Of a stretch of DNA of 62,672 nucleotides, positions 5,075 through 19,571 are shown piece by piece. Position 1 is the stretch's first letter, and each line of letters starts with the position of its first letter. Source of the DNA: Oscillospiraceae bacterium (GTDB taxonomy: Bacteria > Bacillota > Clostridia > Oscillospirales > CAG-272); contig SVSG01000010.1 of assembly GCA_015064415.1 (NCBI GenBank), positions 1 through 62,672 of the forward strand, read 5' to 3'. Both the position numbers and the translations under genes were made by a program. Below the pieces are notes generated by a model. It had not been told where the DNA came from, searched no databases, and was given only the letters and a program-made list of their open reading frames with translations.

Positions 5075-5896
5075 ATGATGGCAAAATCTCCTTACGAAAT
5101 CAAGAAAGAAATCTGCGAGGTCGGCAAAAAGATCTATGATCTGGGCTTCGTCGCCGCAAATGACGGTAACATCTCCGTCAAGGTTGGCCCCAACGAGTTC
5201 TACTGCACCCCCACCGGTGTCTCCAAGGGCTACATGACCCCCGACATGATCATCAAGATCGACGCTGACGGCAACAAGCTGGAGGGCAAGCTGAACCCCT
5301 CCTCCGAGATCAAGATGCACATGCGCGTCTACAAAGAGCGCCCCGACGTGAACGCCGTGGTACACGCTCATCCCCCTGTGGCAACCGCCTTCACCGTGGC
5401 AGGCGTGGAGATGGACCAGATGATCCTTCCCGAGGCCATTCTGACCATCGGTAACGTTCCCACCTGCGATTACGGCACCCCCTCCACCATGGAGATCCCG
5501 GATTCTCTGATGCCCTTCATTCAGAGACACGACGCCTTCCTTCTGAAGAACCACGGCGCTCTCACCGTCGGTAACACGCTGATGCGTGCTTGCTTCACGA
5601 TGGAGGAGGTCGAATTCAACGCAAAGATCAACCTGTACGCCCGTCAGATCGGCGTGGGCGCTGAGGCCCGCATCGACGAGATCCCCTGCGAGCAGCTGGA
5701 GAAGCTGATGGAGCTGCGCAAGAAGATGGGCCTGCCCGGCAAGCACCCCGGCTGCAAGAAGTGCCCCAACCTTGGCACTCCCAACTGCAAGTGCAAGGAC
5801 AACGGCGGCGTTTGCACCTGTGGCGATCATGCTCACGGCGATGCCGACCTTGTGGCTGAGGTCACCCGTCGCGTACTGGCAGCGCTTGGCAGATAA
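5075..5896 (+). CDS. Class II aldolase (fuculose/rhamnulose-phosphate type) with Cys-rich tail and encapsulation helix
   Basis: 273 residues. Zinc ligands of the class II aldolase/adducin fold are visible: HAHP (His97, His99) and NHG (His160). In this setting it should cleave fuculose-1-phosphate (or rhamnulose-1-phosphate) to DHAP and lactaldehyde. The catalytic domain ends near residue 215. A tail follows with three cysteine pairs (C227/C230, C238/C240, C247/C249) plus His252 and His254. The final segment, about 256-273 (DADLVAEVTRRVLAALGR), is an amphipathic helix typical of microcompartment encapsulation peptides. So the aldolase is probably inside the compartment. The Cys/His-rich linker is unusual and could bind metal. 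Which sugar phosphate is used is inferred. Confidence 0.88.
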   Translation: MMAKSPYEIKKEICEVGKKIYDLGFVAANDGNISVKVGPNEFYCTPTGVSKGYMTPDMIIKIDADGNKLEGKLNPSSEIKMHMRVYKERPDVNAVVHAHPPVATAFTVAGVEMDQMILPEAILTIGNVPTCDYGTPSTMEIPDSLMPFIQRHDAFLLKNHGALTVGNTLMRACFTMEEVEFNAKINLYARQIGVGAEARIDEIPCEQLEKLMELRKKMGLPGKHPGCKKCPNLGTPNCKCKDNGGVCTCGDHAHGDADLVAEVTRRVLAALGR

Positions 5897-5934: not shown

Positions 5935-7395
5935 ATGGCTAACAAGCTCTCGGAGGCGCAGATCAACGAGATCGTTGCCCGCGTCGTATCCGAATTCAAA
6001 AAGCCCGCAGCCCCCGTGGCTGCCAAGGAGTGGGATGCCGCACAGTACCAAGGAAGACGCCTGATCGGTGTATATGAAACGATGGAAGAGGCCATCGAGC
6101 AGGCAAATGCCGGCTACCGTGCCGTGCGCGCGATGAGCGTGGCACAGCGCGAGAAGGTGATCACCGCCATTCGCGAGCTCACCCGCAAGGAGGCAGGCAT
6201 TATGGCCGCCCTTGGCGTGGCCGAGACCAAGATGGGCCGCGTGGATCACAAGACCGCCAAGCATTTGCTTGTTGCTGACAAGACCCCCGGCACCGAGGAC
6301 ATCGTTGAGGAGGCAAAGACCGGTGACGCGGGTCTTACCCTCACCGAAATGGCTCCCTTTGGCGTGGTAGGCGCCATCACCCCCTCCACCAACCCCTCCG
6401 AAACCGTCATCTGCAACAGCATCGGCATGATCGCCGCAGGCAACGGTGTGGTGTTCAACCCCCACCCCGGCGCCATTGCCACCTCCAATTACGCCGTTGA
6501 CCTTGTCAACCGCGCCGTGGCAAGTGCGGGCGGCCCCGCCGTTCTTGTCGCCAGTGTGGTGAAGCCCACGCTGGAGACCGCTGCTGTGATGTATAAGCAC
6601 CCCTCCATCAAGCTGCTGGTTTGCACGGGTGGCCCCGGCGTGGTTCGCGCCGTGCTGTCCTCGGGCAAAAAGGCGATCGGTGCGGGTGCCGGCAATCCCC
6701 CCGTCATCGTGGACGACACCGCCGACATTGCGAAGGCGGCCAAGGACATCATCGACGGCTGTACCTTCGATAACAACCTGCCCTGCATTGCGGAAAAGGA
6801 GGTTTTCGTTTTCGAGAACGTCGCAGACCGCCTGATCGCAGGCATGCAGAAGAACGGCTCGATCCTGCTCACCCGTGCGCAAGCCGACGCGCTTGCCAAG
6901 GTGGTGCTGGTGGAAAAGACCAACCCCAAGACCGGCAAGACCTCGCTTGTGGTCAGCCGCGACTGTGTGGGTCGCGACTGCCGCGTGATCCTCGAGAAGA
7001 TCGGCTTGCACGTCGGTCCCGAGATCCGCTGTGCCATCGCAGAGGTCCCCTTCGACCACCCCTTCGTGCAGGAGGAGCTGATGATGCCGATCCTCGGCAT
7101 CGTGCGCGTCAAGGACATTGACGAGGCCATTGATCTTGCCGTCAAGGCAGAGCACGGCAACCGTCACACCGCGCATATGCACTCCAAGAACGTGGACAAC
7201 CTCACCCGCTTCGCGCGTGCGGTCGAGACCACCATTTTCGTCAAGAATGCACCCTCCTACGCCGGCATCGGCTTCGGCGGCGAGGGTCACACCACCTTTA
7301 CCATCGCGGGCCCCACGGGCGAGGGTATCACCTCCGCGCGCAGCTTCACCAGAAAGCGCCGTTGCGTGATGGTAGACAGCTTCCGAATTATTTAA
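5935..7395 (+). CDS. pduP: CoA-acylating aldehyde dehydrogenase (PduP-like)
   Basis: 486 residues with AAAGGAG upstream. Residues 3-20 (KLSEAQINEIVARVVSEF) form an amphipathic helix, the encapsulation peptide found on PduP/EutE-type enzymes. The ALDH core shows MAPFGVVGAITPSTNPSE, GAGNPPVIVDDTAD and catalytic Cys284 in NNLPCIAEKE. It oxidises the dehydratase product (propionaldehyde) with CoA and NAD+ to propionyl-CoA, balancing NADH against the adjacent alcohol dehydrogenase. Length and order (aldolase, PduP, ADH, shell genes) fit fucose/rhamnose-type glycyl radical microcompartments such as that of Clostridium phytofermentans. Propionaldehyde rather than acetaldehyde is inferred from the aldolase. 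Confidence 0.93.
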   Translation: MANKLSEAQINEIVARVVSEFKKPAAPVAAKEWDAAQYQGRRLIGVYETMEEAIEQANAGYRAVRAMSVAQREKVITAIRELTRKEAGIMAALGVAETKMGRVDHKTAKHLLVADKTPGTEDIVEEAKTGDAGLTLTEMAPFGVVGAITPSTNPSETVICNSIGMIAAGNGVVFNPHPGAIATSNYAVDLVNRAVASAGGPAVLVASVVKPTLETAAVMYKHPSIKLLVCTGGPGVVRAVLSSGKKAIGAGAGNPPVIVDDTADIAKAAKDIIDGCTFDNNLPCIAEKEVFVFENVADRLIAGMQKNGSILLTRAQADALAKVVLVEKTNPKTGKTSLVVSRDCVGRDCRVILEKIGLHVGPEIRCAIAEVPFDHPFVQEELMMPILGIVRVKDIDEAIDLAVKAEHGNRHTAHMHSKNVDNLTRFARAVETTIFVKNAPSYAGIGFGGEGHTTFTIAGPTGEGITSARSFTRKRRCVMVDSFRII

Positions 7396-7413: not shown

Positions 7414-8637
7414 GTGAACATCAGTGCTTCTCAAATTGAAAGCATCGTCCGCTCGGTGCTGGGTCAAATGGGTGGCGCCGCCGCTCCCGTGGCAGGGCCT
7501 CTCCCCAAGACCGCACGCGTTGCGATGCTGACGGGTCCCAAGAAGATCGAGGTACAGGAGATCCCGATCCCCGCGCTTGGTGACGACGATATCCTCGTGA
7601 AGGTCGAGGGCGCAGGCATCTGCGGCACCGACGTACACGAATGGAAGGGCGACCCCTTCGGGCTTATCCCCGTGATTCTTGGTCACGAGGGTACGGGCGA
7701 GGTCGTCTATACCGGTAAGAACGTCAAATGCGACACCGCAGGCAAGCCCCTCAAGGTCGGCGACAAGATCGTGACCTCGGTGCTCAGCTGTGGTGAGTGC
7801 TACGCCTGCCGTATGGTCCCCGGCAGAACCAACCTTTGCGACAATCAGGGCGTGTTCGGTCTGATCGGCGACAAGCGCGGCACCGCTGAGGGCAACCGCG
7901 TGAACGGCTGGTTTGCCGATTACATGGTGATCAAGGGCGGCTACGGCGTGACCTATTTCCAGGTGAACGAGCTGAACCTCAAGCAGCGCATGATCCTGGA
8001 GCTTGCTTGCGTGTGCGTGCACGCACTCGAGCGTAGCCAGAAAACGGGCCTTCTCAACTTCGGCTCCAAGGTGCTGGTGCAGGGCTGTGGCCCCGTGGGT
8101 CTTGTGATGATCACGGTGCTGCGCGCCGCAGGCATCAACCACATCGTTGCCGTGGACGGTAACGAGGACCGCCTCAAGGTCGCCGAGCGTATGGGCGCCA
8201 AGACCACCGTTTGCTTCCGCCGTCCCGACGAGGATACGCTGGACAAGCGCGTGGCAAAGGTCAAGGCCGTTGCCAATAACGTGGGCGTGGACTTCGCCTT
8301 CCAGTGCACGGGCGCACCCGTGGCGGCCGCCGACATTTACAGCTACATCCGCCGCGGCGGTGGGCTTTGCGAGATGGGCTTCTTCGTCAACAACGGCGAG
8401 TACCAGATCAACCCCCACTTCGCCATGTGCAACAAGGAGATCGACATCGTCGGCTCCTGGGACTACTCCGCTGAGGACTATCCCAAGACCGTGGCATTCC
8501 TGAAGCAGGCCGCTGAGATGAACATCCCGATCGAGGAGCTCATCACCCACACCTTCCCGCTTGACAAGATGAACGAGGCGATGGAGACCAACGTGGCGCA
8601 GGCAGGCATCAAGATCTGCTATATGAACGATAACTAA
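7414..8637 (+). CDS. Zinc alcohol dehydrogenase, microcompartment-targeted
   Basis: 407 residues from a GTG at 7414 preceded by AAAGGAG. Residues 2-19 (NISASQIESIVRSVLGQM) are a second encapsulation-type helix, then a Pro/Ala linker. The rest is a medium-chain dehydrogenase: catalytic-zinc segment AGICGTDVHEWKG, GHEGTGEV, four structural-zinc cysteines in CGECYACRMVPGRTNLC, and a Rossmann motif QGCGPVGLVMI. It probably interconverts lactaldehyde and 1,2-propanediol, or propionaldehyde and propanol, recycling NAD+ inside the shell. It replaces the iron-type PduQ of the B12-dependent pdu system. Direction and preferred aldehyde are inference. Confidence 0.9.
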   Translation: MNISASQIESIVRSVLGQMGGAAAPVAGPLPKTARVAMLTGPKKIEVQEIPIPALGDDDILVKVEGAGICGTDVHEWKGDPFGLIPVILGHEGTGEVVYTGKNVKCDTAGKPLKVGDKIVTSVLSCGECYACRMVPGRTNLCDNQGVFGLIGDKRGTAEGNRVNGWFADYMVIKGGYGVTYFQVNELNLKQRMILELACVCVHALERSQKTGLLNFGSKVLVQGCGPVGLVMITVLRAAGINHIVAVDGNEDRLKVAERMGAKTTVCFRRPDEDTLDKRVAKVKAVANNVGVDFAFQCTGAPVAAADIYSYIRRGGGLCEMGFFVNNGEYQINPHFAMCNKEIDIVGSWDYSAEDYPKTVAFLKQAAEMNIPIEELITHTFPLDKMNEAMETNVAQAGIKICYMNDN

Positions 8638-8648
8638 GAGGTGCTCAC

Positions 8649-8969
8649 ATGGCAGCTCTTGGTATGATCGAGGTTTACGGCTACACCACCTCGATAGTGA
8701 TCGCAGACATGGTGGCAAAGACCGCCGACGTCAAGGTCGTAGCCATTGACAAGAACAAGCCCGCCAACGCTGATAAATGCGAGGTGCCGCTTGTGATGGT
8801 CGTGAAGTTTATGGGCAGTGCCGGCGCCGTACAGTCCGCTCTGGACGCGGGCGTGGAAGAGGCCAAGCGCCGTGGACTTTACATCACCTCCAAGCTCATT
8901 GCGGGGCTGGACGAGCAGGTCGACTGGTTCGCCAACCTCACCGCAACGGGGCGCGATAAGCTCAGATAA
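8649..8969 (+). CDS. BMC-H shell protein, divergent, Cys in pore loop
   Basis: 106 residues, 11 bases after the alcohol dehydrogenase. One BMC domain, starting MAALGMIEVYGYTTSIVIADMV. The loop that lines the hexamer pore is longer than in PduA-type proteins and reads NKPANADKCEVP, with Cys44. The C-terminus is extended by about 15 residues. A cysteine near the pore recalls PduT and GrpU-type shell proteins that bind an Fe-S cluster, but the spacing differs and this is inference. It is clearly a specialised shell component, not a structural bulk hexamer. Confidence 0.88.
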   Translation: MAALGMIEVYGYTTSIVIADMVAKTADVKVVAIDKNKPANADKCEVPLVMVVKFMGSAGAVQSALDAGVEEAKRRGLYITSKLIAGLDEQVDWFANLTATGRDKLR

Positions 8970-9013
8970 AAAAACAAAAAAATAAAAACAACGATTAAAA
9001 GGAGAATTGCACA

Positions 9014-9286
9014 ATGAACGAAGCACTTGGTATGATCGAGACCCGCGGCCTGGTTGCCGCTATTGAGGCAGCAGACGCTATGGTGAAGGCTGCAAACGTG
9101 ACCCTGATCGGTTCCGAGAAGATCGGTTCCGGCCTTGTTTCCGTGATGGTTCGCGGCGACGTTGGCGCTGTGAAGGCTGCTGTTGAGGCAGGCGGCGCTG
9201 CTGCTGCACGTCTTGGCGAGGTGATCGCTACGCACGTCATCCCCAGACCCCACACCGACGTAAACAAGCTCCTCCCCACCCTTTAA
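9014..9286 (+). CDS. BMC-H shell protein, PduA-type, copy 1
   Basis: 90 residues with AAAAGGAG upstream. A canonical BMC-H hexamer subunit: ALGMIETRG start, pore loop [12 protein letters not shown], and tail [19 protein letters not shown]. It forms the flat facets and a small polar pore for diol entry. The 77 residues from EALG to RPH are identical to the genes at 9312 and 9948; only the extreme termini differ. Synonymous positions differ between the copies, so the protein is held constant while the DNA has drifted. Confidence 0.95.
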
Positions 9287-9311
9287 TTTTCAAAACATAA
9301 GGAGAATTAAC

Positions 9312-9584
9312 ATGGAAGCTCTTGGCATGATTGAAACCCGTGGTCTGGTTGCCGCTATTGAGGCAGCAGACGCTATGGTAAAGGCAGCAAACGTGACCCT
9401 TATTGGTTCCGAGAAGATCGGTTCCGGACTTGTATCCGTGATGGTTCGCGGCGACGTTGGCGCTGTGAAGGCCGCTGTGGAGGCAGGCGGCGCCGCTGCT
9501 GCACGTCTTGGCGAGGTCATCGCAACTCACGTGATCCCCAGACCTCACTCTGACGTGGATAAGCTGCTCCCCACCCTGAAGTAA
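9312..9584 (+). CDS. BMC-H shell protein, PduA-type, copy 2
   Basis: 90 residues, 25 bases after copy 1, with AAGGAG before the ATG. Starts MEALGMIE (one residue shorter than copy 1) and ends [11 protein letters not shown]. Pore loop EKIGSGL is identical to the other two copies. Probably a facet hexamer; mixing of copies within one hexamer is expected because the core is identical. It is followed by a 16-base perfect palindrome (9591-9606). Confidence 0.95.
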
Positions 9585-9590
9585 TCTCTC

Positions 9591-9606
9591 GCGCGGCATG
9601 CCGCGC
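9591..9606. repeat. Perfect 16-base palindrome between shell genes
   Basis: GCGCGGCATGCCGCGC lies between two shell genes, 6 bases after a stop codon and 21 before the next ATG. No T-run follows, so it is not a classical terminator. It could stabilise or pause the transcript; function unknown. Confidence 0.6.
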
Positions 9607-9626
9607 AAAGGTGAAAGGAAGTACTT

Positions 9627-9911
9627 ATGGAAAACGCAATCGCATTGCTTGAGGTGCAGGCAATGGTGACGGCGATCGTGGGCCTTGACGCGATGGTAAA
9701 GGCCGCTGACGTGAAGCTGATCCACACGGAAAAGCGTCTTGGCGGTTGGCTGGTTACCGTCGTGGTCGAGGGCTCGGTCTCTGCCGTGACTGCCGCCCTT
9801 GAGGCAGGAAAGGCCGCGGCTGCGGCCGTCGGTAAGGTGAAGTGCGCCGAAGTGATCGCACGTCCCCATCCCGACATCATGAAATTCATCAAAACCGATA
9901 AGGGCGTGTAA
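9627..9911 (+). CDS. BMC-H shell protein with GGW pore loop
   Basis: 94 residues with AAAGGAAG upstream. One BMC domain (MENAIALLEVQAMVTAIVGLDAMVKAADVKLIH) but clearly a paralog. The pore loop KRLGGWLVTVVV replaces the usual [11 protein letters not shown], placing a tryptophan next to the pore. The tail ARPHPDIMKFIKTDKGV is also different. It sits between two identical PduA-type copies. Likely a minor hexamer with altered permeability, for example for a cofactor or a larger or aromatic-interacting molecule; this is inference. Confidence 0.92.
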   Translation: MENAIALLEVQAMVTAIVGLDAMVKAADVKLIHTEKRLGGWLVTVVVEGSVSAVTAALEAGKAAAAAVGKVKCAEVIARPHPDIMKFIKTDKGV

Positions 9912-9947
9912 CCCCTATCGCGCAAATTTTGAAAGGAGATACGTAAA

Positions 9948-10220
9948 ATGGAAGCTCTTGGCATGATCGAAACCCGTGGTCTGGTTGCCGCTATCGAGGC
10001 AGCAGACGCTATGGTAAAGGCTGCAAACGTGACCCTCATTGGCTCCGAGAAGATCGGCAGCGGACTTGTGTCCGTGATGGTTCGCGGCGACGTTGGCGCT
10101 GTGAAGGCCGCTGTTGAGGCAGGCGGCGCCGCTGCTGCCCGTCTTGGCGAAGTGATCGCGACTCACGTGATTCCCCGTCCCCACTCTGACGTGGATAAGC
10201 TGCTCCCCAAGCTCGGCTAA
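9948..10220 (+). CDS. BMC-H shell protein, PduA-type, copy 3
   Basis: 90 residues with AAAGGAG upstream, core identical to copies 1 and 2, ending [11 protein letters not shown]. Third gene dose of the main facet hexamer. It is the last gene before a strong intra-operon hairpin (10226-10287), which may make the shell genes more abundant than the downstream ones. Confidence 0.95.
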
Positions 10221-10287: not shown

Positions 10288-10362
10288 GCGAAGTAACGTG
10301 AAGTGCTTGCCGCTTCCCGTTCCTTTGCAAAGAAACCTTCCTCAAAAGAAAGGAAAAAAGAT

Positions 10363-11019
10363 ATGGAAATCAATGCAGCAGCAGTTGCTGAACTTGTGAA
10401 AAAGATCGTTGCCGAAATGGAGGGTGCGCCCGCCGGCAAGTCCGCAGGCGAGATCCCCGTCGGCATCTCCAACCGTCATATCCACCTGTGCGAAAAGGAC
10501 GTGGAGACGCTTTTCGGTGCGGGCTACACGCTCACCCCCTTGAAGGATCTTTCCCAGCCCGGGCAGTACGCCTGCAAGGAGACCTTGACGCTGGTCGGCC
10601 CCTCGATGCGCGCCATTGAGGGCGTGCGTGTGCTGGGCCCCGTACGTAAGGCAAGTCAGGTCGAGATCTCCAAGACCGACTCCTTCCAGTTAAAGGTCAA
10701 TCCCCCCGTACGCGAGTCCGGCAAGATCGAGGGCTCCGCGCCCGTCACGATCGTGGGCCCGAAGGGCGTTGTCACCCTCAAGGAGGGCTGCATCATCGCC
10801 AACCGCCACATCCATATGAGCCCCGATGAGGCGGCTGTGTTTGGCGTGAAGGATTGCGATTACATTGACGTGGACGTGTGCTCCGGCACGCGCAAGACGC
10901 GTTGGTTTGACGTACAGATCCGCGTACACAAGGATTTCCGTCTGGAAATGCACGTGGACACCGACGATGCGAACTCCGCCGGCATCAAGAACGGCAGCAC
11001 CGTCACCGTTGTGAAATAA
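10363..11019 (+). CDS. pduL: Phosphate propanoyltransferase PduL
   Basis: 218 residues from the ATG at 10363 (AAAGGAAAA upstream); an in-frame upstream extension to 10303 has no ribosome site and overlaps the hairpin region. Residues 2-19 (EINAAAVAELVKKIVAEM) are an encapsulation-type helix. The body has two PduL beta-barrel repeats, seen as the paired metal-binding motifs VGISNRHIHL and IIANRHIHMSPDEA. It swaps CoA for phosphate, making propionyl-phosphate and freeing CoA inside the shell for PduP. It replaces the unrelated Pta. Confidence 0.95.
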   Translation: MEINAAAVAELVKKIVAEMEGAPAGKSAGEIPVGISNRHIHLCEKDVETLFGAGYTLTPLKDLSQPGQYACKETLTLVGPSMRAIEGVRVLGPVRKASQVEISKTDSFQLKVNPPVRESGKIEGSAPVTIVGPKGVVTLKEGCIIANRHIHMSPDEAAVFGVKDCDYIDVDVCSGTRKTRWFDVQIRVHKDFRLEMHVDTDDANSAGIKNGSTVTVVK

Positions 11020-11038: not shown

Positions 11039-11302
11039 ATGCTGAAAGGAAAAGTTGTAGGAACCATCGTTTCCACCAACAAGCTGGACTCCCTTGTCGG
11101 CTTCAAGTTTTTGGAGGTACGTATCATTGAAAACGACGTACTGACCGACAAATATATCGTGGCTGTGGATCGCACCGTCAGCGCCGGCATCGGCGAGGAG
11201 GTGCTGGTCACCACCGGCAGTGCCGCCAGACGTGCCACCGGTTGCCCCGACACCCCCGTTGACGCAATGATCGTCGGCGTGGTGGATAAGCATCAAAACT
11301 GA
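11039..11302 (+). CDS. eutN: BMC vertex pentamer protein (EutN/CcmL family)
   Basis: 87 residues, 19 bases after pduL. Starts MLKGKVVGTIVSTNKLDSLVGFKFLEV and ends VDAMIVGVVDK, the standard EutN/CcmL/PduN pattern. It forms pentamers that cap the vertices of the shell. As the only vertex gene in the locus it should be essential for closure. A palindrome-rich repeat follows before the next gene. Confidence 0.95.
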   Translation: MLKGKVVGTIVSTNKLDSLVGFKFLEVRIIENDVLTDKYIVAVDRTVSAGIGEEVLVTTGSAARRATGCPDTPVDAMIVGVVDKHQN

Positions 11303-11410: not shown

Positions 11411-12739
11411 ATGTCGCTTCAGGAACTGAAAAACTTAATACAACAAAGCGGCATCGTGGGTGCCGGCGGCGCGGGATTTCCCTCTCACGCGAAGCTTGCC
11501 GAGGGCGCGGATATCCTTGCGCTCAACTGCGCCGAATGTGAGCCGCTGATCTACACCGACTATATGCTGATGCAACAGCATCTTGCCAAGATCGCACGCG
11601 GTGCGACACTGGTGATGGAGGCCGCAGGCATCCCGCAAGCGCTGCTTTGCGTCAAGGCGCACCGCGCCGAAATGCTCGGCATGGAGGAAGGCGACGAGAT
11701 CGCCCCGCGCGTGCGCGTAAAACTGTTGCCCGACGCCTACCCGATGGGAGACGAGATCAATCTGATCTATGAGGCGACGGGGCGCGTGGTAAAGCCGGGA
11801 CAGCTGCCGATCACCAAGGGCGTGATCGTGCTCAACGGCGAGACCGCCTATAACATAGCACTTGCCGCAGACGAAGGCAAGCCGGTTACCGAAAAATGGG
11901 TAACGGTGGGCGGTGACATCGACACTCGCGTGGTCGTGCGCGTGCCCGTGGGCATGCGCGTGGCGGATCTGTTCCACACACTGCATATTACCGTACCCAA
12001 GGGCTATACCGTCCTTGACGGCGGCCCCTCGATGGGCAAAAAGATCCGCGTCGCCACCGCCGTGATCGGCAAGACGACCAAATCTTTGCTCATTTTGCCC
12101 GACACTGCGCCCGCCATTGCGCACAAGAATATCGCCATTGCGGATATGCTCCGCCGTGCGGCATCCTGCTGCTGCGGCTGCACGCGCTGTACCGAAATGT
12201 GCCCGCGCCATCTGCTCGGCTACCCGATCGAGCCGCACAAAATGATCCGTGCCGCCAACAACGACCTGGCGAAGAGAAATCCCGACTTGATCAAGACCGC
12301 TTCGCTTTGCTGCTCCTGCGGCGTGTGCGCGGAGGTCTGCTGTCAGGATATCTCCCCCAAGGACGTCATTCTGGATCTGAAAAATATCCTTGCCCAAAAC
12401 AAAATGCGTTTTGTCGCGGGCGAGGAGGAATATAAATTGCACGAGGATCGCAAGCACCGTCTCATTCCCTCCGCACGCTGGGAAAGCATCCTCGGTGTGA
12501 GAAAATTCGACATCGTTCCCACGCTTTTGGCACATTCCATCCCCGCCGCGCGTGTGGAGATCCCCATGTCGGGACACATCGGCGCACCCTCCGTCCCCGC
12601 CGTCAAGGTGGGTGATGCCGTCAAGGTGGGGGATGTGATCGCCACCGCCGCGCAAGGGCTTTCAATGCCCCAGCACGCGTCGATCGCGGGCAAGGTCACC
12701 TTTGTGGACGACAAGAAAATTATCATTGAAAACAAGTAA
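11411..12739 (+). CDS. pduS: PduS/RnfC-like flavin and Fe-S oxidoreductase
   Basis: 442 residues with AAAGGACAC upstream. The N-terminal RnfC/complex-I 51 kDa-like part has the glycine-rich motif GIVGAGGAGFPSHAK (FMN/NADH site) and ALNCAECEPL. A ferredoxin-like domain carries two 4Fe-4S sets: C254/C257/C260/C264 region and C300/C303/C306/C310 region. A barrel-sandwich region lies at the C-terminus. PduS proteins move electrons from NADH, and the next gene encodes the Fe-S shell trimer PduT. Together they could pass electrons through the shell, for NAD+ recycling or to re-reduce the activase. Confidence 0.9.
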   Translation: MSLQELKNLIQQSGIVGAGGAGFPSHAKLAEGADILALNCAECEPLIYTDYMLMQQHLAKIARGATLVMEAAGIPQALLCVKAHRAEMLGMEEGDEIAPRVRVKLLPDAYPMGDEINLIYEATGRVVKPGQLPITKGVIVLNGETAYNIALAADEGKPVTEKWVTVGGDIDTRVVVRVPVGMRVADLFHTLHITVPKGYTVLDGGPSMGKKIRVATAVIGKTTKSLLILPDTAPAIAHKNIAIADMLRRAASCCCGCTRCTEMCPRHLLGYPIEPHKMIRAANNDLAKRNPDLIKTASLCCSCGVCAEVCCQDISPKDVILDLKNILAQNKMRFVAGEEEYKLHEDRKHRLIPSARWESILGVRKFDIVPTLLAHSIPAARVEIPMSGHIGAPSVPAVKVGDAVKVGDVIATAAQGLSMPQHASIAGKVTFVDDKKIIIENK

Positions 12740-12754
12740 GGCAGGTAGACAGAT

Positions 12755-13300
12755 ATGTATCAAGCCATTGGTGTCATTGAACTGAAAAGCATTGCAAAGG
12801 GCTACGAGGCCACGGACGCGGCGCTGAAAAGCGCGGGCATCCGTCTGGTGTCGGCGCATCCCGCCTGCCCCGGGAAATATGAGATCATCCTCACGGGCAC
12901 GATCTCGAACGTGACCGCCGCCGTAGAGCACGTGAAGGAGCGCTACGACGAGAAGATGATCGACTACTCGATCATGGGTCGCATCGATGAGCAGGTGATC
13001 GCCGCCCTTCTTGGCACGCAGCTCACCGAAAAGAAGGGCTCGCTTGGCATTATTGAGACCTTCTCTGCCGCAAGCGCCATCAAGGCGGCGGATATTGCCG
13101 TCAAGACCGCCAAGGTCGAGATCTTCGAGCTGCGCGTATCGCGCGGCATGGGCGGCAAGGGCGTGGTCCTTGTCACCGGTGAGATCGGCGACGTCAGCGC
13201 CGCCGTGGAGGCAGGTGCCGCCCACGCGCAGTCGCAGGGCGTGTTCGCCTCCAGCTCCGTGATTGCCGCCCCCCACGAGCTTCTCTGGGAGCAGATCTGA
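12755..13300 (+). CDS. pduT: BMC-T tandem shell protein with Fe-S pore (PduT-like)
   Basis: 181 residues made of two BMC domains (about 1-90 and 91-181, the second starting GSLGIIETFSAASAIKAAD). The first pore loop reads HPACPGKYEII with Cys38, the same position and context as the cysteine that binds a 4Fe-4S cluster on the three-fold axis of PduT trimers. It is directly downstream of the pduS-like gene (15-base gap), its expected electron partner. Confidence 0.93.
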   Translation: MYQAIGVIELKSIAKGYEATDAALKSAGIRLVSAHPACPGKYEIILTGTISNVTAAVEHVKERYDEKMIDYSIMGRIDEQVIAALLGTQLTEKKGSLGIIETFSAASAIKAADIAVKTAKVEIFELRVSRGMGGKGVVLVTGEIGDVSAAVEAGAAHAQSQGVFASSSVIAAPHELLWEQI

Positions 13301-13340: not shown

Positions 13341-15869
13341 ATGGCTGAGTTGAAATTTGTCATTGAAAAGAGCCCGCGTATCCAAAAGCTGATCGACCAT
13401 CTCTATGAGAGAATGCCCGAGATCGAGCCCTATCGCGCGGAGTTGGTTACGGAAAGCTATAAGCAGACTGAGCATCTGCCCATCATCAAGCGTCGCTCGG
13501 CGGCCTTCCGTCATATTCTGGAGAATATTCCAATCATCATTCGCGAGGGTGAGCTGATCGTGGGTAGCAACTCGATCGCCCCCCGCGGCTGCCAGACCTT
13601 CCCCGAATATTCCTTCGAGTGGCTGGAGCCCGAGTTTGATACGATCGCCACGCGTGAGGCAGACCCCTTCTATATCTCGAAGGAGACCGTCGAGCGCCTC
13701 AAAAAGGTGCATCCTTACTGGAAGGGCAAGACGGTGAGCGACCTTGCCGCCGCAGGAATGGACGCAAAAGTGCTGGACGTATTCCTGAATCACGGTATTT
13801 TCACCGTCGGCAACTACTTCTACAACGGCGTGGGACACATCAACGTGGACTACCCGAAGGTGATCAACAAGGGGCTTGAGGGCGTGATCGCCGAGACCCG
13901 CGCCGCGATGAGCAAGCTTTACATCGGTGACGGTGAATATCAGCAAAAAAAGCAATTCCACGAGGCCGTGATCGAGAGCTGTGAGGCGGTGATCGCCTAC
14001 GCGCATCGCTATGCGGAGCTGGCGCGCAAGGAAGCAAGCTATTGCGCCGATCCCGCACGCCGCGCGGAGCTTTTGCAAATTGCGGAAAACTGCACCCGTG
14101 TACCGGCGAAACCCGCCCGCACCTTCTATGAGGCGTGTCAGGCGTTCTGGTTCGTACAGCAGCTGTTGCAATGCGAATCCAGCGGTCACTCGATCTCTCC
14201 CGGTCGCTTTGACCAGTATATGTACCCCCACTTCAAGCGCGATCTGGATGCAGGTCGCATCACGCACGCCAAGGCGCAGGAGTACATCGACTGCATCTGG
14301 GTCAAGCTCAACGATCTCAACAAAGTGCGCGACGCCGCCTCTGCCGAGGGCTTTGCGGGCTATGGACTGTTCCAGAACCTGATCGTCGGCGGTCAGAATG
14401 AGGAGGGCGTGGACGCCACCAACGATCTTTCCTATATGTGTATGGAGGCCACGATGCACGTGCGCCTTCCCCAACCCTCGCTTTCCATCCGCGTATGGAA
14501 CTGCTCCCCCCACGATCTTCTGTTGAAGGCCGCCTCCGTCACCCGCGAGGGTCTGGGCGTACCCGCCTTCTATAATGACGAGGTCATCATCCCCGCCATC
14601 ATGGCGCGCGGACTCACTCTGGAGGATGCGCGTGATTACTGCATCATCGGTTGCGTGGAGCCGCAAAAGGGCACCAAGACCGACGGCTGGCACGATGCCG
14701 CGTTCTTCAATATGTGCCGTCCTCTGGAGTTGGTATTCTCCAACGGTGTGGACAAGGGCGAGCAGATCGGCCCCCGCACGGGTGACGTGCTGCAGATGCG
14801 CACGTTTGAGGAATTTTACAACGCCTACGTCACGCAAGAGCACGCGATGATCGAAATGATGGTGCACGCGGACAACGCGGTGGACTATGCCCACGCCGTC
14901 CGTTGCCCCCTGCCCTTTGAATCCTCTCTTTGCGACGATTGCATCTCGCGCGGCAAGAGCCTGCAGGAGGGTGGCGCGCACTACAACTTCACGGGTCCGC
15001 AGGGCTTTGGCATTGCGAATATGACGGACGCTCTGCTTGCCGTCAAGACGCTGGTATTTGACGAAAAGAAGGTCACGATGCAGGAGCTGAAGGAAGCGCT
15101 TGCCGACAACTTCGGCAAGGGGATCCTTGCGCGCAAGGCATTGGAGCTGACCACCAAGATCGCCACCGAGCTTGCCATGGGCGGCGCCAACGTGGACGAA
15201 AACGTCATCAAGGCGGTCTACCAAAATCTTGTGAATGCCGAGACCGTGTCCGCCGAAAAGAAGGCACGTTATGCCGAAATTCTTACCATGATCGAAAAAT
15301 TGCCCAAGTACGGCAATGACATCCCTTGGGTGGATGCGTTCGCCCGCGAGGTGGGCAACACCTATACCAAGCCCTTTGAAAAGTTCACCAACCCGCGCGG
15401 CGGCATCTTCCAGGCAGGGCTTTATCCCGTTTCCGCCAACGTGCCGCTCGGCTATCAGACGGGTGCCACGCCCGACGGTCGTCTTGCCTTCACCCCCATT
15501 GCGGACGGTGTGGGACCTGCTTCGGGGCGCGACGTGAAGGGCCCGACGGCTACCGCCAACTCGGTGGCGCGCCTCGACCACGGCATCGCCTCCAACGGCA
15601 CGCTGTTCAATCAGAAATTCCATCCCTCCGCGCTTTCCTCGATGGCAAGCTTGGAGAAATTCGTCGCTTACCTGCGCGGCTACTTTGACCAGAAGGGTAT
15701 GCACGTGCAGTACAACGTGGTCTCCCGCGAGACGCTTCTCGACGCGCAGGCACATCCCGAAAATTATAAGAATCTTGTGGTCCGCGTGGCGGGCTACAGC
15801 GCGCTGTTTACCACGCTTTCCCGCTCCCTGCAGGACGACATCATCGCCCGCACCGAGCAGGGGTGGTAA
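13341..15869 (+). CDS. Glycyl radical diol dehydratase (B12-independent propanediol dehydratase)
   Basis: 842 residues, signature enzyme of the locus. Thiyl-radical cysteine Cys438 and Glu440 are in IIGCVEPQ; radical glycine Gly818 is in VRVAGYSALF near the C-terminus. Residues equivalent to the diol-binding set of Clostridium butyricum glycerol dehydratase are present: His166 (GVGHINVDYP), His283-Ser284 (SSGHSISPGRFDQY) and Asp452 (GWHDAAFFN). That separates it from pyruvate formate-lyase and choline lyase. With the aldolase in the operon, 1,2-propanediol to propionaldehyde is the likely reaction. It needs the activase at 16103 and is destroyed by oxygen. No clear encapsulation helix is seen; packaging may occur through partners. 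Confidence 0.93.
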   Translation: MAELKFVIEKSPRIQKLIDHLYERMPEIEPYRAELVTESYKQTEHLPIIKRRSAAFRHILENIPIIIREGELIVGSNSIAPRGCQTFPEYSFEWLEPEFDTIATREADPFYISKETVERLKKVHPYWKGKTVSDLAAAGMDAKVLDVFLNHGIFTVGNYFYNGVGHINVDYPKVINKGLEGVIAETRAAMSKLYIGDGEYQQKKQFHEAVIESCEAVIAYAHRYAELARKEASYCADPARRAELLQIAENCTRVPAKPARTFYEACQAFWFVQQLLQCESSGHSISPGRFDQYMYPHFKRDLDAGRITHAKAQEYIDCIWVKLNDLNKVRDAASAEGFAGYGLFQNLIVGGQNEEGVDATNDLSYMCMEATMHVRLPQPSLSIRVWNCSPHDLLLKAASVTREGLGVPAFYNDEVIIPAIMARGLTLEDARDYCIIGCVEPQKGTKTDGWHDAAFFNMCRPLELVFSNGVDKGEQIGPRTGDVLQMRTFEEFYNAYVTQEHAMIEMMVHADNAVDYAHAVRCPLPFESSLCDDCISRGKSLQEGGAHYNFTGPQGFGIANMTDALLAVKTLVFDEKKVTMQELKEALADNFGKGILARKALELTTKIATELAMGGANVDENVIKAVYQNLVNAETVSAEKKARYAEILTMIEKLPKYGNDIPWVDAFAREVGNTYTKPFEKFTNPRGGIFQAGLYPVSANVPLGYQTGATPDGRLAFTPIADGVGPASGRDVKGPTATANSVARLDHGIASNGTLFNQKFHPSALSSMASLEKFVAYLRGYFDQKGMHVQYNVVSRETLLDAQAHPENYKNLVVRVAGYSALFTTLSRSLQDDIIARTEQGW

Positions 15870-16017: not shown

Positions 16018-16075
16018 TACCTTGTCCGCCCCTTGTGAGGGGCGGGGGACCAACGAAGTTGGTGGTGGGGTAGTA
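16018..16075. repeat. REP-like palindromic repeat, copy C (inverted relative to B)
   Basis: Contains CCGCCCCTTGTGAGGGGCGG and ACCAACGAAGTTGGT stems, ending 27 bases before the activase start. Its reverse complement aligns in layout with copy B. It may influence mRNA processing between the abundant dehydratase and its catalytic activase. Confidence 0.6.
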
Positions 16076-16102
16076 CAAAATCTCACAGAAAGGAGTAGCA
16101 AA

Positions 16103-16897
16103 ATGAATATTTACGAGCAGCAAGGTCGCATTTTCGACATTCAACGCTACTCCATTCACGACGGCCCCGGCATCCGCACCATTGTGTTTTTGAAGGGGTG
16201 CTATCTGCACTGCCGCTGGTGCTGCAATCCCGAATCGCAGGAATACAAGTTCCAGGAGCTGACGCAGGGCGGGAAGACCCGCACCGTCGGGCGGGATGTG
16301 ACGGTTGCCGAGGTCATGGACGAGATCCTGAAGGATGCCGTCTATTACAGCCGTAGCGGCGGCGGTGTGACGCTGTCGGGCGGCGAATGTATGGCGCAGC
16401 CCGAATTTTCCGAGGCGCTGCTACGCGCCGTGCACGAGTACGGCTTCTCCACCGCGGTGGAAACCACGGCGTTTGCCTCACGTGAGGTCGTGGAGCGCCT
16501 GCTCCCCCACATTGACCTGTTTATGATGGACATCAAGCACATGGACAGCCAAAAGCACGAGGCGTTTTGCGGAAAGCCGAACGAGCAGATCTTGGAAAAC
16601 GCCAAGTTCATCGCGGAAAACGCGAAGGAGATGATCGTGCGCGTGCCCACCGTGCCCACCTTTAACGCGACCGAAGAGGAAATTGCCGCCATCGCGCGCT
16701 TTACCGCCACGCTCCCGCGCGTGAAGGAGCTACACCTGCTCCCCTATCACCGCTTGGGGCAGGACAAGTACGCGGGGCTTGGCCGCGAATACACGCTGGC
16801 GCACATCCTGCCCCCGACGGGAGAGGAAATGGAGCGCCTTGCCGCCGCCGCACGCGCCGCGGCACCCACCTTGCACGTTCACATAGGAGGAAACTAA
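16103..16897 (+). CDS. Glycyl radical enzyme activase (radical SAM)
   Basis: 264 residues from the ATG at 16103 (AAAGGAG upstream); the in-frame extension to 16022 runs through repeat copy C and is rejected. The radical SAM cluster motif CX3CX2C is at C33, C37 and C40 (CYLHCRWC), followed by NPES; SGGECMAQPEF gives the SAM-binding GGE. It generates the Gly818 radical on the upstream dehydratase. It is short: most diol dehydratase and choline lyase activases are about 300 residues, with an inserted two-cluster ferredoxin domain after the first motif. Here only about 20 cysteine-free residues separate NPES from the next conserved part. Confidence 0.92.
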   Translation: MNIYEQQGRIFDIQRYSIHDGPGIRTIVFLKGCYLHCRWCCNPESQEYKFQELTQGGKTRTVGRDVTVAEVMDEILKDAVYYSRSGGGVTLSGGECMAQPEFSEALLRAVHEYGFSTAVETTAFASREVVERLLPHIDLFMMDIKHMDSQKHEAFCGKPNEQILENAKFIAENAKEMIVRVPTVPTFNATEEEIAAIARFTATLPRVKELHLLPYHRLGQDKYAGLGREYTLAHILPPTGEEMERLAAAARAAAPTLHVHIGGN

Positions 16898-16898
16898 G

Positions 16899-17267
16899 AT
16901 GGATATGATGGATATGAAGGATAAAATGCGCATCGTTCAAGAGCTGGTGCCCGGTCGCCAGATTACCCTCGCGCACATCATTGCCAACCCCGATCCGATT
17001 CTGTACCAAAAGCTGGGGCTTGACCCCTCGCTGGATTATAAGCGCGCCGCCATCGGCGTGCTGACCGTTTCCCCTGCGGAAACGGCGGTCATCACGGCGG
17101 ACATCGCCCTGAAGGCCTCCGGTGCGGAGCTTGGATTTGTGGACAGATTCTCCGGCACGCTGATCATCACCGGCACGGTGGATGAGGTAGAATCCAGCTT
17201 CCAGTCGATTGCCGATTACTTCAAAAACGTGCTGAAATTCACCGTCTGCGACGTGACGCGCACGTAA
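16899..17267 (+). CDS. pduU: Circularly permuted BMC-H shell protein (PduU/EutS-like)
   Basis: 122 residues starting 1 base after the activase stop, with AGGAGG inside the activase end. The N-terminal part RQITLAHIIANPDP is the short strand region that forms a beta-barrel over the pore in PduU/EutS. It is followed by the permuted BMC fold (AAIGVLTVSPAETAVITADIALKASGAELGFVD). Several alternative ATGs lie in the first 10 codons. In other systems PduU-type shells are candidate binding partners of PduV, the next gene here. Confidence 0.92.
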   Translation: MDMMDMKDKMRIVQELVPGRQITLAHIIANPDPILYQKLGLDPSLDYKRAAIGVLTVSPAETAVITADIALKASGAELGFVDRFSGTLIITGTVDEVESSFQSIADYFKNVLKFTVCDVTRT

Positions 17268-17283
17268 TTACCCCCCTAACGGT

Positions 17284-17709
17284 ATGAAAAAACTGATCCT
17301 GATGGGGCGCGTGGCGGCGGGCAAGACAACGCTCACGCAGGCGCTCAAGGGCGAGCAGATCCATTACTGCAAGACCCAGTACATCCACTATAAGGACACC
17401 ATCATCGACACACCGGGCGAGTACACCGAGGTACATACCCTTGGTGCGGCGCTGGCTCTTTACTCCTATGAGGCGGATGTCATCGGCCTTGTCATCAGCG
17501 CAGACGAGCCCTTTTGCGTCTTTCCCCCGCACTGTGTCTATCACGTCAACCGCGATAGCATCGGCATCATCACGGGCATTGATAAGCCAAATGCCAATAT
17601 CCCGCAGGTCGAGCTGTGGCTGCGCAACTGCGGTGTGACGAAGATCTTTTACGTCAGCTCCTACACGGGTGAGGGGCTGGACACCATCATTGATTACCTC
17701 AACCAATAA
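17284..17709 (+). CDS. pduV: PduV/EutP-like small GTPase
   Basis: 141 residues. The P-loop GRVAAGKTTL is at residues 8-17, the switch-2 motif is DTPGEY and the base-recognition stretch is ITGIDKPNA. EutP/PduV proteins associate with microcompartments, and PduV has been linked to their movement or placement. It sits between the PduU-like shell gene and the ParA gene, consistent with a localisation module at the operon end. No membrane or encapsulation segment is seen. Confidence 0.92.
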   Translation: MKKLILMGRVAAGKTTLTQALKGEQIHYCKTQYIHYKDTIIDTPGEYTEVHTLGAALALYSYEADVIGLVISADEPFCVFPPHCVYHVNRDSIGIITGIDKPNANIPQVELWLRNCGVTKIFYVSSYTGEGLDTIIDYLNQ

Positions 17710-17718
17710 GGAGGACGT

Positions 17719-18507
17719 ATGGCAACCAAGACCATCTGCTTTGCAAACAATAAGGGCGGCAGCGGTAAATCCACCACCTGCGCGAACGTCGGTTACGCCC
17801 TTTCCACGCTTGGAAAAAAGGTGTTGCTCATTGACGGCGACATGCAAATGAACCTGACGCTCTCCTTTTTTGACGACGAGCGCTCGCTGGAATATGCCAA
17901 GGGCGGGAAAAATCTGTACCGCGGCATTGTCGAGCAAAAGGACCTTTCCGACTTTGCGGTGCCGACCGATTACAAAAATCTTGACCTGATCCCCTCCTCC
18001 ACGCTGATGAGCAGTATAGAGTTTGATCTGTTCACCAAGTGGCAGCGCGAGTTTATTCTGCGCGAGGGTCTGAAAAAGATCAAGGAAAGCAACAAATATG
18101 ACTATATTCTGATCGACGCGCCTCCCACGCTTGGCTGCTGGGTGATGAACATCATGTGCGCGTCCGACTATCTGATCATCCCGGTCGAGGCCTCCCCCTG
18201 GGGACTTTTCGGCCTTGCCAATATGTTTGAGTTTTACGAGCAGGTAAAACGCCTTTCCCCCGACCTTACGCTGCTTGGCGTCGCCATCACCAAGGCCTGC
18301 GAGCGCAAAAACTATTTCAAGCAAACGCTGGATACGCTCTCGGCCCTTGAAAACGTACGTCTGTTCCAATCCATCATCCGTGTGGACAGCACGGTGGAGT
18401 GGTCGCAGGACGTGAGCAAGCCCGTGATGGCCTATAAGAAGACCAGCCGTGCGGCAAAGGAATATATGGAACTTGCAAAGGAGATCAAAAAGTATGTCAC
18501 TCGGTAA
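17719..18507 (+). CDS. ParA/MinD-type ATPase in the microcompartment operon
   Basis: 262 residues, 9 bases after the pduV-like stop with AAGGAGG. All ParA motifs are present: deviant Walker A KGGSGKST (residues 12-19, signature Lys12), Walker A-prime LIDGDMQMN (Asp39, Asp41) and Walker B YILIDAPP (Asp133). It lacks the N-terminal helix-turn-helix of plasmid ParA types, so it is of the short Soj/McdA size. Such ATPases form dynamic gradients on the nucleoid and move cargo bound by a partner. Carboxysomes use McdA of this type. The partner candidate is the overlapping 73-residue gene. Microcompartment positioning is inference from location; it could instead be a general chromosomal ParA. Confidence 0.88.
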   Translation: MATKTICFANNKGGSGKSTTCANVGYALSTLGKKVLLIDGDMQMNLTLSFFDDERSLEYAKGGKNLYRGIVEQKDLSDFAVPTDYKNLDLIPSSTLMSSIEFDLFTKWQREFILREGLKKIKESNKYDYILIDAPPTLGCWVMNIMCASDYLIIPVEASPWGLFGLANMFEFYEQVKRLSPDLTLLGVAITKACERKNYFKQTLDTLSALENVRLFQSIIRVDSTVEWSQDVSKPVMAYKKTSRAAKEYMELAKEIKKYVTR

Positions 18508-18715
18508 AGACAGCATCCAGAAGCGCGTGGCAAAGCCCGCCGAGCCCGCAAAGAAGGCACCCGCAAAGAAAGCGCCCGCCAAAAAGAGCGCGCCCAAGGC
18601 CGCCGTGCTCACAAACGTGGCCCCCGAGACCGTGGAAAAGGTGATCGCGCACAAGGAAAATGACAACGTGGTAAAATGCTCCCTTGGCCAAAATCTTCCC
18701 TATTATCTGCTTTGA
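18494..18715 (+). CDS. Small Lys/Ala/Pro-rich protein, putative ParA partner
   Basis: 73 residues. The ATG at 18494 overlaps the last 14 bases of parA in another frame, a sign of translational coupling. Residues 1-12 (MSLGKDSIQKRV) are followed by a low-complexity basic stretch of AKKAP repeats (about 13-36). Then come a short folded-looking segment (NVAPETVEKVIAHKE) and a hydrophobic/aromatic end, GQNLPYYLL. No helix-turn-helix is visible. The plan of a charged disordered part with a terminal aromatic tag recalls McdB-type adaptors in layout only; no sequence relation is claimed. It may stimulate ParA and link it to cargo. I have an impression that similar proteins accompany ParA genes in other Clostridia, so the role may not be specific to microcompartments. 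Confidence 0.8.
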   Translation: MSLGKDSIQKRVAKPAEPAKKAPAKKAPAKKSAPKAAVLTNVAPETVEKVIAHKENDNVVKCSLGQNLPYYLL

Positions 18716-18758: not shown

Positions 18759-19571
18759 ATGCAATTTCTCAAGGACGTCTGGAACGCCATTTACAGCTTT
18801 GCTGTGAACAACTTCCGCACCATTCTCATGTTCGTACTGTTTATCTTCGTCGGTCTTATTGTGATCAAGATCGTGATGTCGATCTTCCGCAAGATAATCA
18901 ACCGCTCTCACCTGAAGGGCACCGCCGGCAACTTCCTGATCTCGCTGATCAAGACCGCGCTGGTCATCCTTTACGTCATCATCCTTCTGTCGATGCTGGG
19001 TGTGGACACCACCTCGCTTGTGGCGATCTTCAGCGTGCTGACGCTGGCCATCTCGCTTGCGGTGCAGGGTGTGATCTCCAACCTTGCCTCCGGCATTATG
19101 CTGATCGTGACCAAGCCCTTTGAGGAGGGCGACTTCGTCGACATCGGCGGCACCTCCGGCACGGTAGAGCACATTATGATCACCTGCACCAAGCTGAAGA
19201 CCCCTGACAACAAGGTCATCACCATCCCGAACAGCACCGTGACCGCCTCCAACATCACCAACTACTCGACCAAGGAGACCCGCCGTCTGGATCTCACCTT
19301 CTCGGTGGCCTACGGCTCCGACGTGGAAAAGGTCAAGGCCCTGATCCTTGGCGTCATTGCCAAGCACGAGGAGGTCCTTACCGATCCCGAGCCCTTTGTA
19401 CGCCTCACCGAGCACGGCGCAAGCTCGCTTGACTTCGTGACCCGCGTGTGGGTCAAGCAGGCCGACTATTGGGACGTGAACTTCGCCCTCAAGGAAGAAG
19501 TGCTTGCCGAGTTTGAAGCAAACGGCATCTCGATCCCCTTCCCCCAGATGGACGTGCACGTCATTCAGTAA
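18759..19571 (+). CDS. MscS-family mechanosensitive channel
   Basis: 270 residues with AAAAGGAG upstream. Three transmembrane segments lie at about 15-40, 60-85 and 88-110; the third is the MscS pore helix (LAISLAVQGVISNLASGIMLIV). Then come the beta domain (KPFEEGDFVDIGGTSGTVEHI) and the C-terminal vestibule. It opens under membrane tension to release solutes. It is 43 bases downstream of the small protein with no clear promoter of its own, so it may be read through from the microcompartment operon, which ends at the terminator after it. A functional link to the compartment is not evident. Confidence 0.92.
   Translation: MQFLKDVWNAIYSFAVNNFRTILMFVLFIFVGLIVIKIVMSIFRKIINRSHLKGTAGNFLISLIKTALVILYVIILLSMLGVDTTSLVAIFSVLTLAISLAVQGVISNLASGIMLIVTKPFEEGDFVDIGGTSGTVEHIMITCTKLKTPDNKVITIPNSTVTASNITNYSTKETRRLDLTFSVAYGSDVEKVKALILGVIAKHEEVLTDPEPFVRLTEHGASSLDFVTRVWVKQADYWDVNFALKEEVLAEFEANGISIPFPQMDVHVIQ

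Follow-up and report, generated by a model that had tools for sequence, protein, structure and literature searches.

A window of 62,672 nucleotides, the whole stretch of DNA analysed here, from an Oscillospiraceae bacterium (GenBank assembly GCA_015064415.1, contig SVSG01000010.1) carries a ParA-type ATPase gene and the gene of a small basic protein directly behind a microcompartment (BMC) operon, and the question raised by this arrangement is whether the pair serves the compartment or something else. The placement of catabolic microcompartments in cells is called unclear in a passage of PMC8262871. The glycyl-radical microcompartment (GRM) locus of the window runs from a class II aldolase gene (5075) to the gene of a PduV-like GTPase and is followed by ParA and the small adaptor gene:

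5075-5896, + strand: class II aldolase (PF00596, 4.8e-49)
5935-7395, + strand: aldehyde dehydrogenase-like protein (from its sequence)
7414-8637, + strand: alcohol dehydrogenase-like protein (from its sequence)
8649-10220, + strand: five BMC-type shell genes in tandem, candidate docking surface (8649-8969, 9014-9286, 9312-9584, 9627-9911 and 9948-10220)
10303-11019, + strand: PTAC (PF06130, 3.4e-76)
11039-11302, + strand: EutN-like protein (from its sequence)
11411-12739, + strand: PduS-like protein (from its sequence)
12755-13300, + strand: two-domain PduT-like shell protein (PF00936, 8.3e-40)
13341-15869, + strand: glycyl radical diol dehydratase, the compartment's signature enzyme (best solved relative the diol dehydratase 5i2a, 1179.6 bits)
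16022-16897, + strand: radical SAM protein and probable glycyl radical enzyme activase (PF04055, 1e-15; PF13353, 1.4e-13)
16899-17267, + strand: PduU-like BMC shell protein (PF00936, 8e-12)
17284-17709, + strand: PduV/EutP-like GTPase, last GRM gene ahead of ParA (PF10662, 2.2e-47)
17719-18507, + strand: ParA-type ATPase of 262 aa, proposed motor (Pfam AAA_31, 5.3e-53)
18494-18715, + strand: small adaptor of 73 aa plus stop (ATG at 18494; no Pfam match)

The names aldehyde dehydrogenase-like, alcohol dehydrogenase-like, EutN, PduS, PduT and PduU are those that we presume from the sequences. With a diol dehydratase, an activase, BMC shell proteins, PTAC and presumably an aldehyde dehydrogenase, the window holds the gene set of a GRM, and the encoded compartment is predicted to be of the 1,2-propanediol type, with a subtype that we take to be GRM5-like from its aldolase. 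Among the tandem shell genes PF00936 matches 8649-8969 at 4.8e-16 and has further places at 9023, 9318 and 9954; the genome of the window has 8 PF00936 matches. The open reading frame of the radical SAM protein was delimited mechanically, and its real start is probably further downstream. An MscS-like channel gene at 18759 is the next gene after the adaptor, and no match to it was found at the compared loci beyond the window's own copies.

The original prediction had described a complete ParA gene with a deviant Walker A motif that starts 9 bases past the end of the PduV-like GTPase gene, and a small protein ending in LPYYLL that overlaps the 3' end of ParA; both were confirmed, the former at 17719-18507 and the latter with an overlap of 14 bases and a length of 73 residues. 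Its statement that the pair is fused to the end of the operon is correct in that the two genes are appended to the GRM operon, and incorrect if taken as a protein fusion, which is absent.

The deviant Walker A motif of ParA reads KGGSGKST, with the signature lysine at K12 and the Walker A lysine at K17. When 11 chosen rows of the ParA subfamily were set against 13 Soj-like rows, K12, K17 and R196 were kept in both, and K192, K197 and R221 were found in the subfamily and were missing from nearly all of the Soj-like rows; K192 and K197 were invariant across a 29-row alignment. The conserved and the extra basic residues fit a nucleoid-binding ATPase, with DNA binding as a presumed property. The nearest solved structures are 8ray, an unnamed ParA (6.7e-32), and then Soj (2e-22), with McdA (6non/6noo) at only 1.1e-14; by sequence the protein is closer to Soj and to the unnamed ParA than to this sole solved McdA, in a comparison confined to solved structures. 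A Soj-like gene of the same genome (G000:C10:37917) is 31% identical to the window ParA and is followed by what by sequence is a ParB-like gene, and the window ParA is evidently distinct from this Soj/ParB pair of its own genome. In a class-wide sample the next 12 ParA matches below the subfamily are 34-38% identical (E 1e-43 to 1e-40), which amounts to a clear gap; a ParB-like gene, again judged from sequence, lies behind 11 of them, and all 12 were left out of the subfamily counts. Exactly one ParA copy (E <= 1e-40) was found in each of 30 genomes inspected.

In the samples examined, the ParA subfamily is confined to genomes with shell genes. The family sample, 196 genomes of the window's own family, has ParA at E <= 1e-60 in 26 and BMC shell domains in 50, and every ParA-positive genome is also BMC-positive (26/26). 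The overlap is likewise complete in a second family (150 genomes, one per genus; ParA in 16, BMC in 41, overlap 16/16) and in the class sample (393 genomes; ParA of at least 60% identity in 7 including the window's genome, BMC in 102, overlap 7/7). Hypergeometric probabilities, which ignore shared ancestry, are 7e-19 for the family, 7.5e-11 for the second family and 6.8e-5 for the class. The family and class samples contain the window's own genome; without it the overlaps are 25/25 (p = 2.7e-18) and 6/6 (p = 2.6e-4), with shared ancestry ignored as before. Counted by genus, the family sample comprises 71 genera, 19 of them BMC-positive and 9 ParA-positive (p = 1.2e-6). The converse fails, this ParA being absent from 24 of the 50 BMC-positive genomes of the family and from 25 of the 41 of the second family. 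PduV is present in 26/26 ParA-positive family genomes with a gap of 12-189 nt between PduV and ParA, measured between BLAST alignment ends, and in the 25 genomes other than that of the window the ParA relatives behind PduV are 58-85% identical to the window ParA. The proposed link of the pair to this microcompartment is upheld by these complete overlaps and by the conserved ends of the adaptor.

The window adaptor consists of an N-terminal MSLGKDSIQKRVAK, a linker rich in Lys, Ala and Pro, and a C-terminal NLPYYLL. A search with the small protein alone gave matches in 10/196 family genomes; the protein diverges too fast, and its position behind ParA and its end motifs were therefore used. A small-protein match in genome G020 was rejected as spurious, since it lies on a contig other than that of the GRM locus and contains two stop codons. 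The C-terminal motif [LMIV]P.[YFWH]L[LM] was found in 56 frames directly behind ParA at 80 loci (the best 80 of 309 relatives), against a background of 3 other frames among the 14,970 stop-ended frames of at least 40 codons at those 80 loci. Recognition by the C-terminal motif would be circular, and adaptors were for this reason then defined by position and the N-terminal motif M.[IVL]G..[SA][ILVM] alone. Such an adaptor is found at the ParA stop at 97 of 127 ParA loci: 26/26 in the family, 57/80 among the best 80 of 309 relatives (one cut off), 5/6 further class loci and 9/15 further loci of the second family. Of these, 96 are complete, and 94 end in [LM]P.[YFWH]L[LMF], the remaining two in LPIFLR and IPVYLL.

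The 127 loci include genomes fetched twice, and the distinct adaptors number 86. Proline at position -5 is invariant among them (86/86), and position -3 is Tyr in 53, as in the window, Phe in 15, His in 13 and Trp in 5, and is thus aromatic in 73/86. The N-terminus is basic, with Lys at position 5 in 75/86 and Lys or Arg at position 10 in 83/86. Between the two fixed ends the linker measures about 37 to 181 residues with a net charge of -6 to +17, and an acidic residue lies within five positions ahead of the C-terminal aromatic or His in 82/96 adaptors. By its sequences the adaptor is a real protein family, and constant ends on either side of a variable stretch would suit an adaptor that joins ParA to a cargo.

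The pair is not always found beside shell genes. For the best 80 of the 309 confirmed relatives in named genomes, shell genes were sought with window queries (E <= 1e-4) within the fetched stretch, which reaches at most about 9 kb to each side and in many cases ends at a contig end. They were present at 43/80 loci and none were seen at 37/80. Among the latter are a group from Blautia, loci whose adaptors carry ParB_N, cases at contig ends and ParAs that have no partner. PF00936 shell domains were present in 30/30 genomes inspected (28 of the 37, L075 and L099) with 6-15 matches each. Because 37 of the 80 loci are unlinked and all 30 genomes are PF00936-positive, the pair can leave the BMC operon and every genome checked still had shell genes. 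An earlier caution that the cargo could be something else is warranted as far as the 37 unlinked loci are concerned, but finds no echo in the 30 genomes; the refuting condition named alongside it, a pair found mostly away from microcompartment genes with no co-occurrence, was put to the test, and co-occurrence was found.

At 30 of the 127 ParA loci an N-motif adaptor is not adjacent, although one of these (L223) has a near variant. Twenty-two of the 24 partnerless ParAs in a quick tree form one clade, and no adaptor adjoining ParA was found in G292 (L164). A C-terminal DNA pattern was applied to 19 genomes in search of a distant adaptor for the 22-member clade; adaptors already known from G209 and G221 were recovered with it, but it is too noisy for this purpose, since it gave 224 matches against 166 for a reversed control, and no new adaptor was found among 40 matches inspected (30 loci and 10 regions). 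As to other neighbours at the 37 loci without nearby shell genes, an AraC-type regulator lies behind ParA at 19, an FGGY sugar kinase at 14 and an HD-domain gene ahead of ParA at 14, one example of each having been scanned with Pfam. A link to deoxy-sugar use would fit the substrate of the compartment.

The hypothesis that we hold with good confidence is that this gene pair acts as a McdAB-like cassette which positions the glycyl-radical (propanediol) compartment encoded upstream, although the cell-biological steps are those that we infer. ParA-ATP dimers would bind the nucleoid, and the fixed basic N-terminus of the adaptor (MSLGKDSIQKRVAK in the window) would bind ParA and trigger ATP hydrolysis and release. 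Through the flexible linker, the C-terminal [LM]Px[aromatic or His]LL tail would clamp the compartment shell, and compartments may then follow ParA along the nucleoid, keep their spacing and pass to both daughter cells. That the pair serves the microcompartment, by whatever route, is strongly supported by the co-occurrence together with the conserved adaptor ends.

Co-occurrence and end motifs fit any shell-directed function, and the pair might govern the assembly, number or clearing of compartments and not their spacing, in which case ParA would be a nucleotide switch and the adaptor a chaperone that binds the shell. PduK of Salmonella, according to a passage of a review (PMC13052382), influences PDU placement without such a pair. 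We regard this as improbable: the signature lysine, R196 and extra basic residues of ParA fit a nucleoid-binding ATPase, and the adaptor layout of basic N-end, variable middle and C-terminal aromatic is that of McdB as described. It is quite unlikely that the histone H1-like Lys/Ala/Pro linker itself tethers compartments to DNA while ParA merely regulates the tether. The window linker does have a net charge of +5, and the adaptor of a Blautia relative matches histone H1-like HC2 below the cut-off (28.3 vs 40 bits), but at 14/96 adaptor loci the net charge of the linker is zero or negative, and among these are two lineages linked to a GRM, both represented twice (L060/L186 and L061/L187); the length of the linker, moreover, ranges between about 37 and 181 residues, while both ends are fixed. 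The predicted contact of the linker with DNA is therefore unlikely to be essential.

DNA as the cargo, that is, an ordinary partition pair of a plasmid, mobile element or chromosome found behind the GRM operon by chance, would agree with the membership of ParA in its family, with the ParB_N domain in the adaptors of seven relatives and with the many pairs unlinked to BMC genes. However, the genome possesses a separate Soj-like gene next to a ParB-like one, and no helix-turn-helix family was detected by Pfam in the 8 adaptors scanned, six of which carry ParB_N. The subfamily is also found only in BMC-positive genomes in each sample, whereas 7/12 genomes with Soj-like class matches are BMC-positive, a proportion itself above the background of 102/393. 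Chance association with a DNA partition pair is accordingly very improbable in our judgement, and we have equally little belief that the C-terminal [LM]PxYLL is an encapsulation signal that would place the adaptor inside the compartment and leave ParA to do something else. Encapsulation peptides are likewise conserved peptides behind flexible linkers, but they are described in the abstract of PMC12339742 as short helical domains, which a terminal Pro-x-aromatic-Leu-Leu can hardly be; furthermore, an internal adaptor would be out of the reach of ParA, yet the two genes overlap and stay together.

If the pair is a positioning cassette, the tail should have a dock on the shell. Among the 24 ParA-less, BMC-positive genomes of the family, 12 were inspected, and PduU and PduV were present in 12/12 of their GRM loci; these have a different gene order, with the aldolase behind PduV, and also carry PduT and BMC-H, several at lower identity. 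In several ParA-positive BMC loci the fetched stretch contains neither PduU nor PduV. Since PduU is carried by ParA-less loci, and some ParA-positive loci are without PduU and PduV, these loci do not single out the PduU-like protein, which the original prediction had given as an example of a dock; its relatives occur in loci with and without ParA alike. The 9014-type BMC-H is 76-97% identical in 18/18 ParA-positive loci compared and 80-90% identical in ParA-less loci, and would be a reasonable first dock candidate, put forward only as such. The original prediction is as a whole partly supported.

The adaptors of some relatives may point to the origin of the system. A ParB_N domain lies between the usual two ends in 7/86 distinct adaptors (L077, L101, L165-L168 and L211), a count obtained with a profile built from those same seven; the Pfam scan covered 8 adaptors, and the PF02195 E-values of the six ParB_N adaptors scanned were 1.2e-13, 5.8e-10, 5.3e-12, 3e-9, 6e-11 and 6.2e-9. 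The L211 adaptor is 52% identical to that of L077. A profile of three ParB_N adaptors finds Noc (5.3e-14), Spo0J and further structures of ParB proteins, with sulfiredoxin (8.1e-6) as a weaker match. A GxxR, which we take to be the motif of the ParB CTP-binding region, is visible in the ParB_N adaptors. A profile of all seven gave no convincing match to the other 79 adaptors (best 0.0076). The quick tree, with Soj-like rows as its root, puts L165-L168 outside the remaining members and leaves L101 and L077 at an unresolved fork near its base; as such a tree with a very distant outgroup is a rough one, this basal position of the ParB_N forms is no more than suggestive. These data suggest that the adaptor ancestry may be ParB-like, and that the ParB_N form may be the older and the short form derived.

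One may tentatively go further and speculate, as something possible rather than probable, that BMC positioning in Clostridia is a chromosome- or plasmid-type ParAB system redirected to the shell, in which an adaptor that was once a ParB-like CTPase lost its DNA-binding part and gained the [LM]PxYLL tail, most lineages then losing ParB_N. If so, the ParB_N forms would represent surviving stages of the passage from ParB to McdB-like adaptors, perhaps still CTP-switched as organelle adaptors, and most adaptors would consist of a pair of short end motifs joined by the disordered string that is left after the loss of ParB_N. The ParB_N adaptors would in this way provide a concrete path by which McdB-like proteins could have arisen. 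McdB is reported, in the relevant passage of PMC6328274, to have no identifiable likeness to known ParB proteins, and no link between ParB and the adaptors was found in the titles, abstracts and some passages of the open literature on McdB with ParB, ParB-like proteins with BMCs, and ParA with Lachnospiraceae metabolosomes.

Compared with the alpha and beta McdAB systems, the present pair shares a gene for a ParA-type ATPase followed by that of a small adaptor, an adaptor with a basic N-terminus, a variable low-complexity middle and, in 73 of the 86 distinct ones, a C-terminal aromatic, and genes that are linked to BMC genes or lie elsewhere in BMC-positive genomes. It differs in its proposed cargo, a catabolic GRM instead of a carboxysome, and in its tail, since the Trp of carboxysome McdB is invariant whereas here Tyr, Phe, His and rarely Trp occupy a Pro-x-[YFWH]-Leu-Leu frame, of which no mention was found in the examined parts of the McdAB literature. 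The window ParA is, in addition, nearer to Soj by sequence, some adaptors here hold ParB_N, and McdA of S. elongatus is without the signature lysine (PMC6328274), in contrast to the window ParA with its K12. Passages of PMC11321042 state that Tyr can replace the C-terminal Trp in S. elongatus McdB, and less well in that of H. neapolitanus, and that acidic residues ahead of the C-terminal aromatic are a trend in McdB-like proteins; a passage of PMC12204374 reports that 20 residues at the N-terminus of McdB from H. neapolitanus are enough for McdA binding.

With Soj/Spo0J the pair has in common an ATPase family with K12, K17 and R196, and ParB_N in 7/86 distinct adaptors; it differs in that the subfamily is 31-38% identical to Soj-like matches, the 8 adaptors scanned have no HTH family, and the proposed cargo is a protein organelle. 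A ParABS system comprises a ParB with a CTPase domain and HTH, and parS; the window adaptor has no Pfam match, and the six ParB_N adaptors scanned have no HTH. The PDU positioning linked to PduV in a 2010 study (as cited in PMC8262871) has a parallel in the adjacency of PduV and ParA in the window, but PduV also occurs without this ParA in the 12/12 ParA-less GRM loci inspected.

McdAB-like pairs at GRM and PDU operons have already been proposed in print (PMC8262871, PMC11321042). As far as their descriptions go, these putative pairs are of the same kind as ours: ParA and a partner of small size lie close to a GRM operon, and one of the final five residues is, as given by Basalla et al. 2024 (PMC11321042) for GRM and PDU McdB-like partners, Tyr or Phe; the passages concerned mention no ParB_N partner and no genome-level co-occurrence test. 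Axen et al. 2014 (PMC4207490) name ParA, in the relevant part, among the accessory genes of BMC loci, and a 2025 review (PMC13052382) notes in one passage that mcdAB-like genes are occasionally close to EUT or PDU operons. Keyword searches of PMC6325248 and PMC8217296 found nothing on ParA positioning, and the examined portions of the literature report no experimental test of a McdAB-like pair outside carboxysomes. New here, as far as the literature search shows, are the test of association with shell genes, the precise form of the tail and the adaptors that carry ParB_N. The placement question becomes directly testable, because there is now a defined ParA whose association with shell genes is complete in all three samples, and an adaptor with sharply defined ends. 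The best 80 of the 309 relatives include cultured Blautia strains, for example of Blautia massiliensis and Blautia luti, that carry the pair.

Among the loci fetched for ParA relatives, some adaptors carry a ParB_N domain, flanked by the fixed N-terminal and C-terminal motifs:

L077, 9770-10315: ParB_N adaptor
L101, 9770-10315: ParB_N adaptor
L165, 989-1495, minus strand: ParB_N adaptor
L166, 322-828, minus strand: ParB_N adaptor
L167, 995-1495, minus strand: ParB_N adaptor
L168, 2274-2894: ParB_N adaptor
L211: ParB_N adaptor, behind ParA

No helix-turn-helix family was recognised in a Pfam scan of six of these (L077, L101, L165-L168). The ParB_N-bearing adaptors may connect ParB with proteins of the McdB-like kind. 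A long lysine-rich adaptor from Blautia (L093:9767-10207) matched the histone H1-like family HC2 at 2.3e-6 and 28.3 bits, below the 40-bit cut-off.

The adaptor is absent next door in a clade of 22 ParAs (L074, L075, L082, L084, L089, L094, L098, L099, L103, L106, L108-L110, L112, L115-L117, L119-L121, L128 and L130). No partner was found adjacent to these ParAs or among the 40 pattern matches read from the 19 genomes searched. An AraC-type regulator-like ORF lies downstream of ParA in most members; frequent neighbours are a sugar kinase of the FGGY family and a gene with an HD domain.

GRM loci of the window's own family also occur in a second gene order (L266-L277), without ParA, with an aldolase behind PduV and with the shell genes downstream of PduV, not upstream.

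In the window, an MscS-like mechanosensitive channel gene (18759-19571), without a match in the other loci compared, follows 43 bases behind the adaptor. Three tandem BMC-H shell genes (9014-9286, 9312-9584 and 9948-10220) are nearly identical, their run being broken by a divergent copy (9627-9911).
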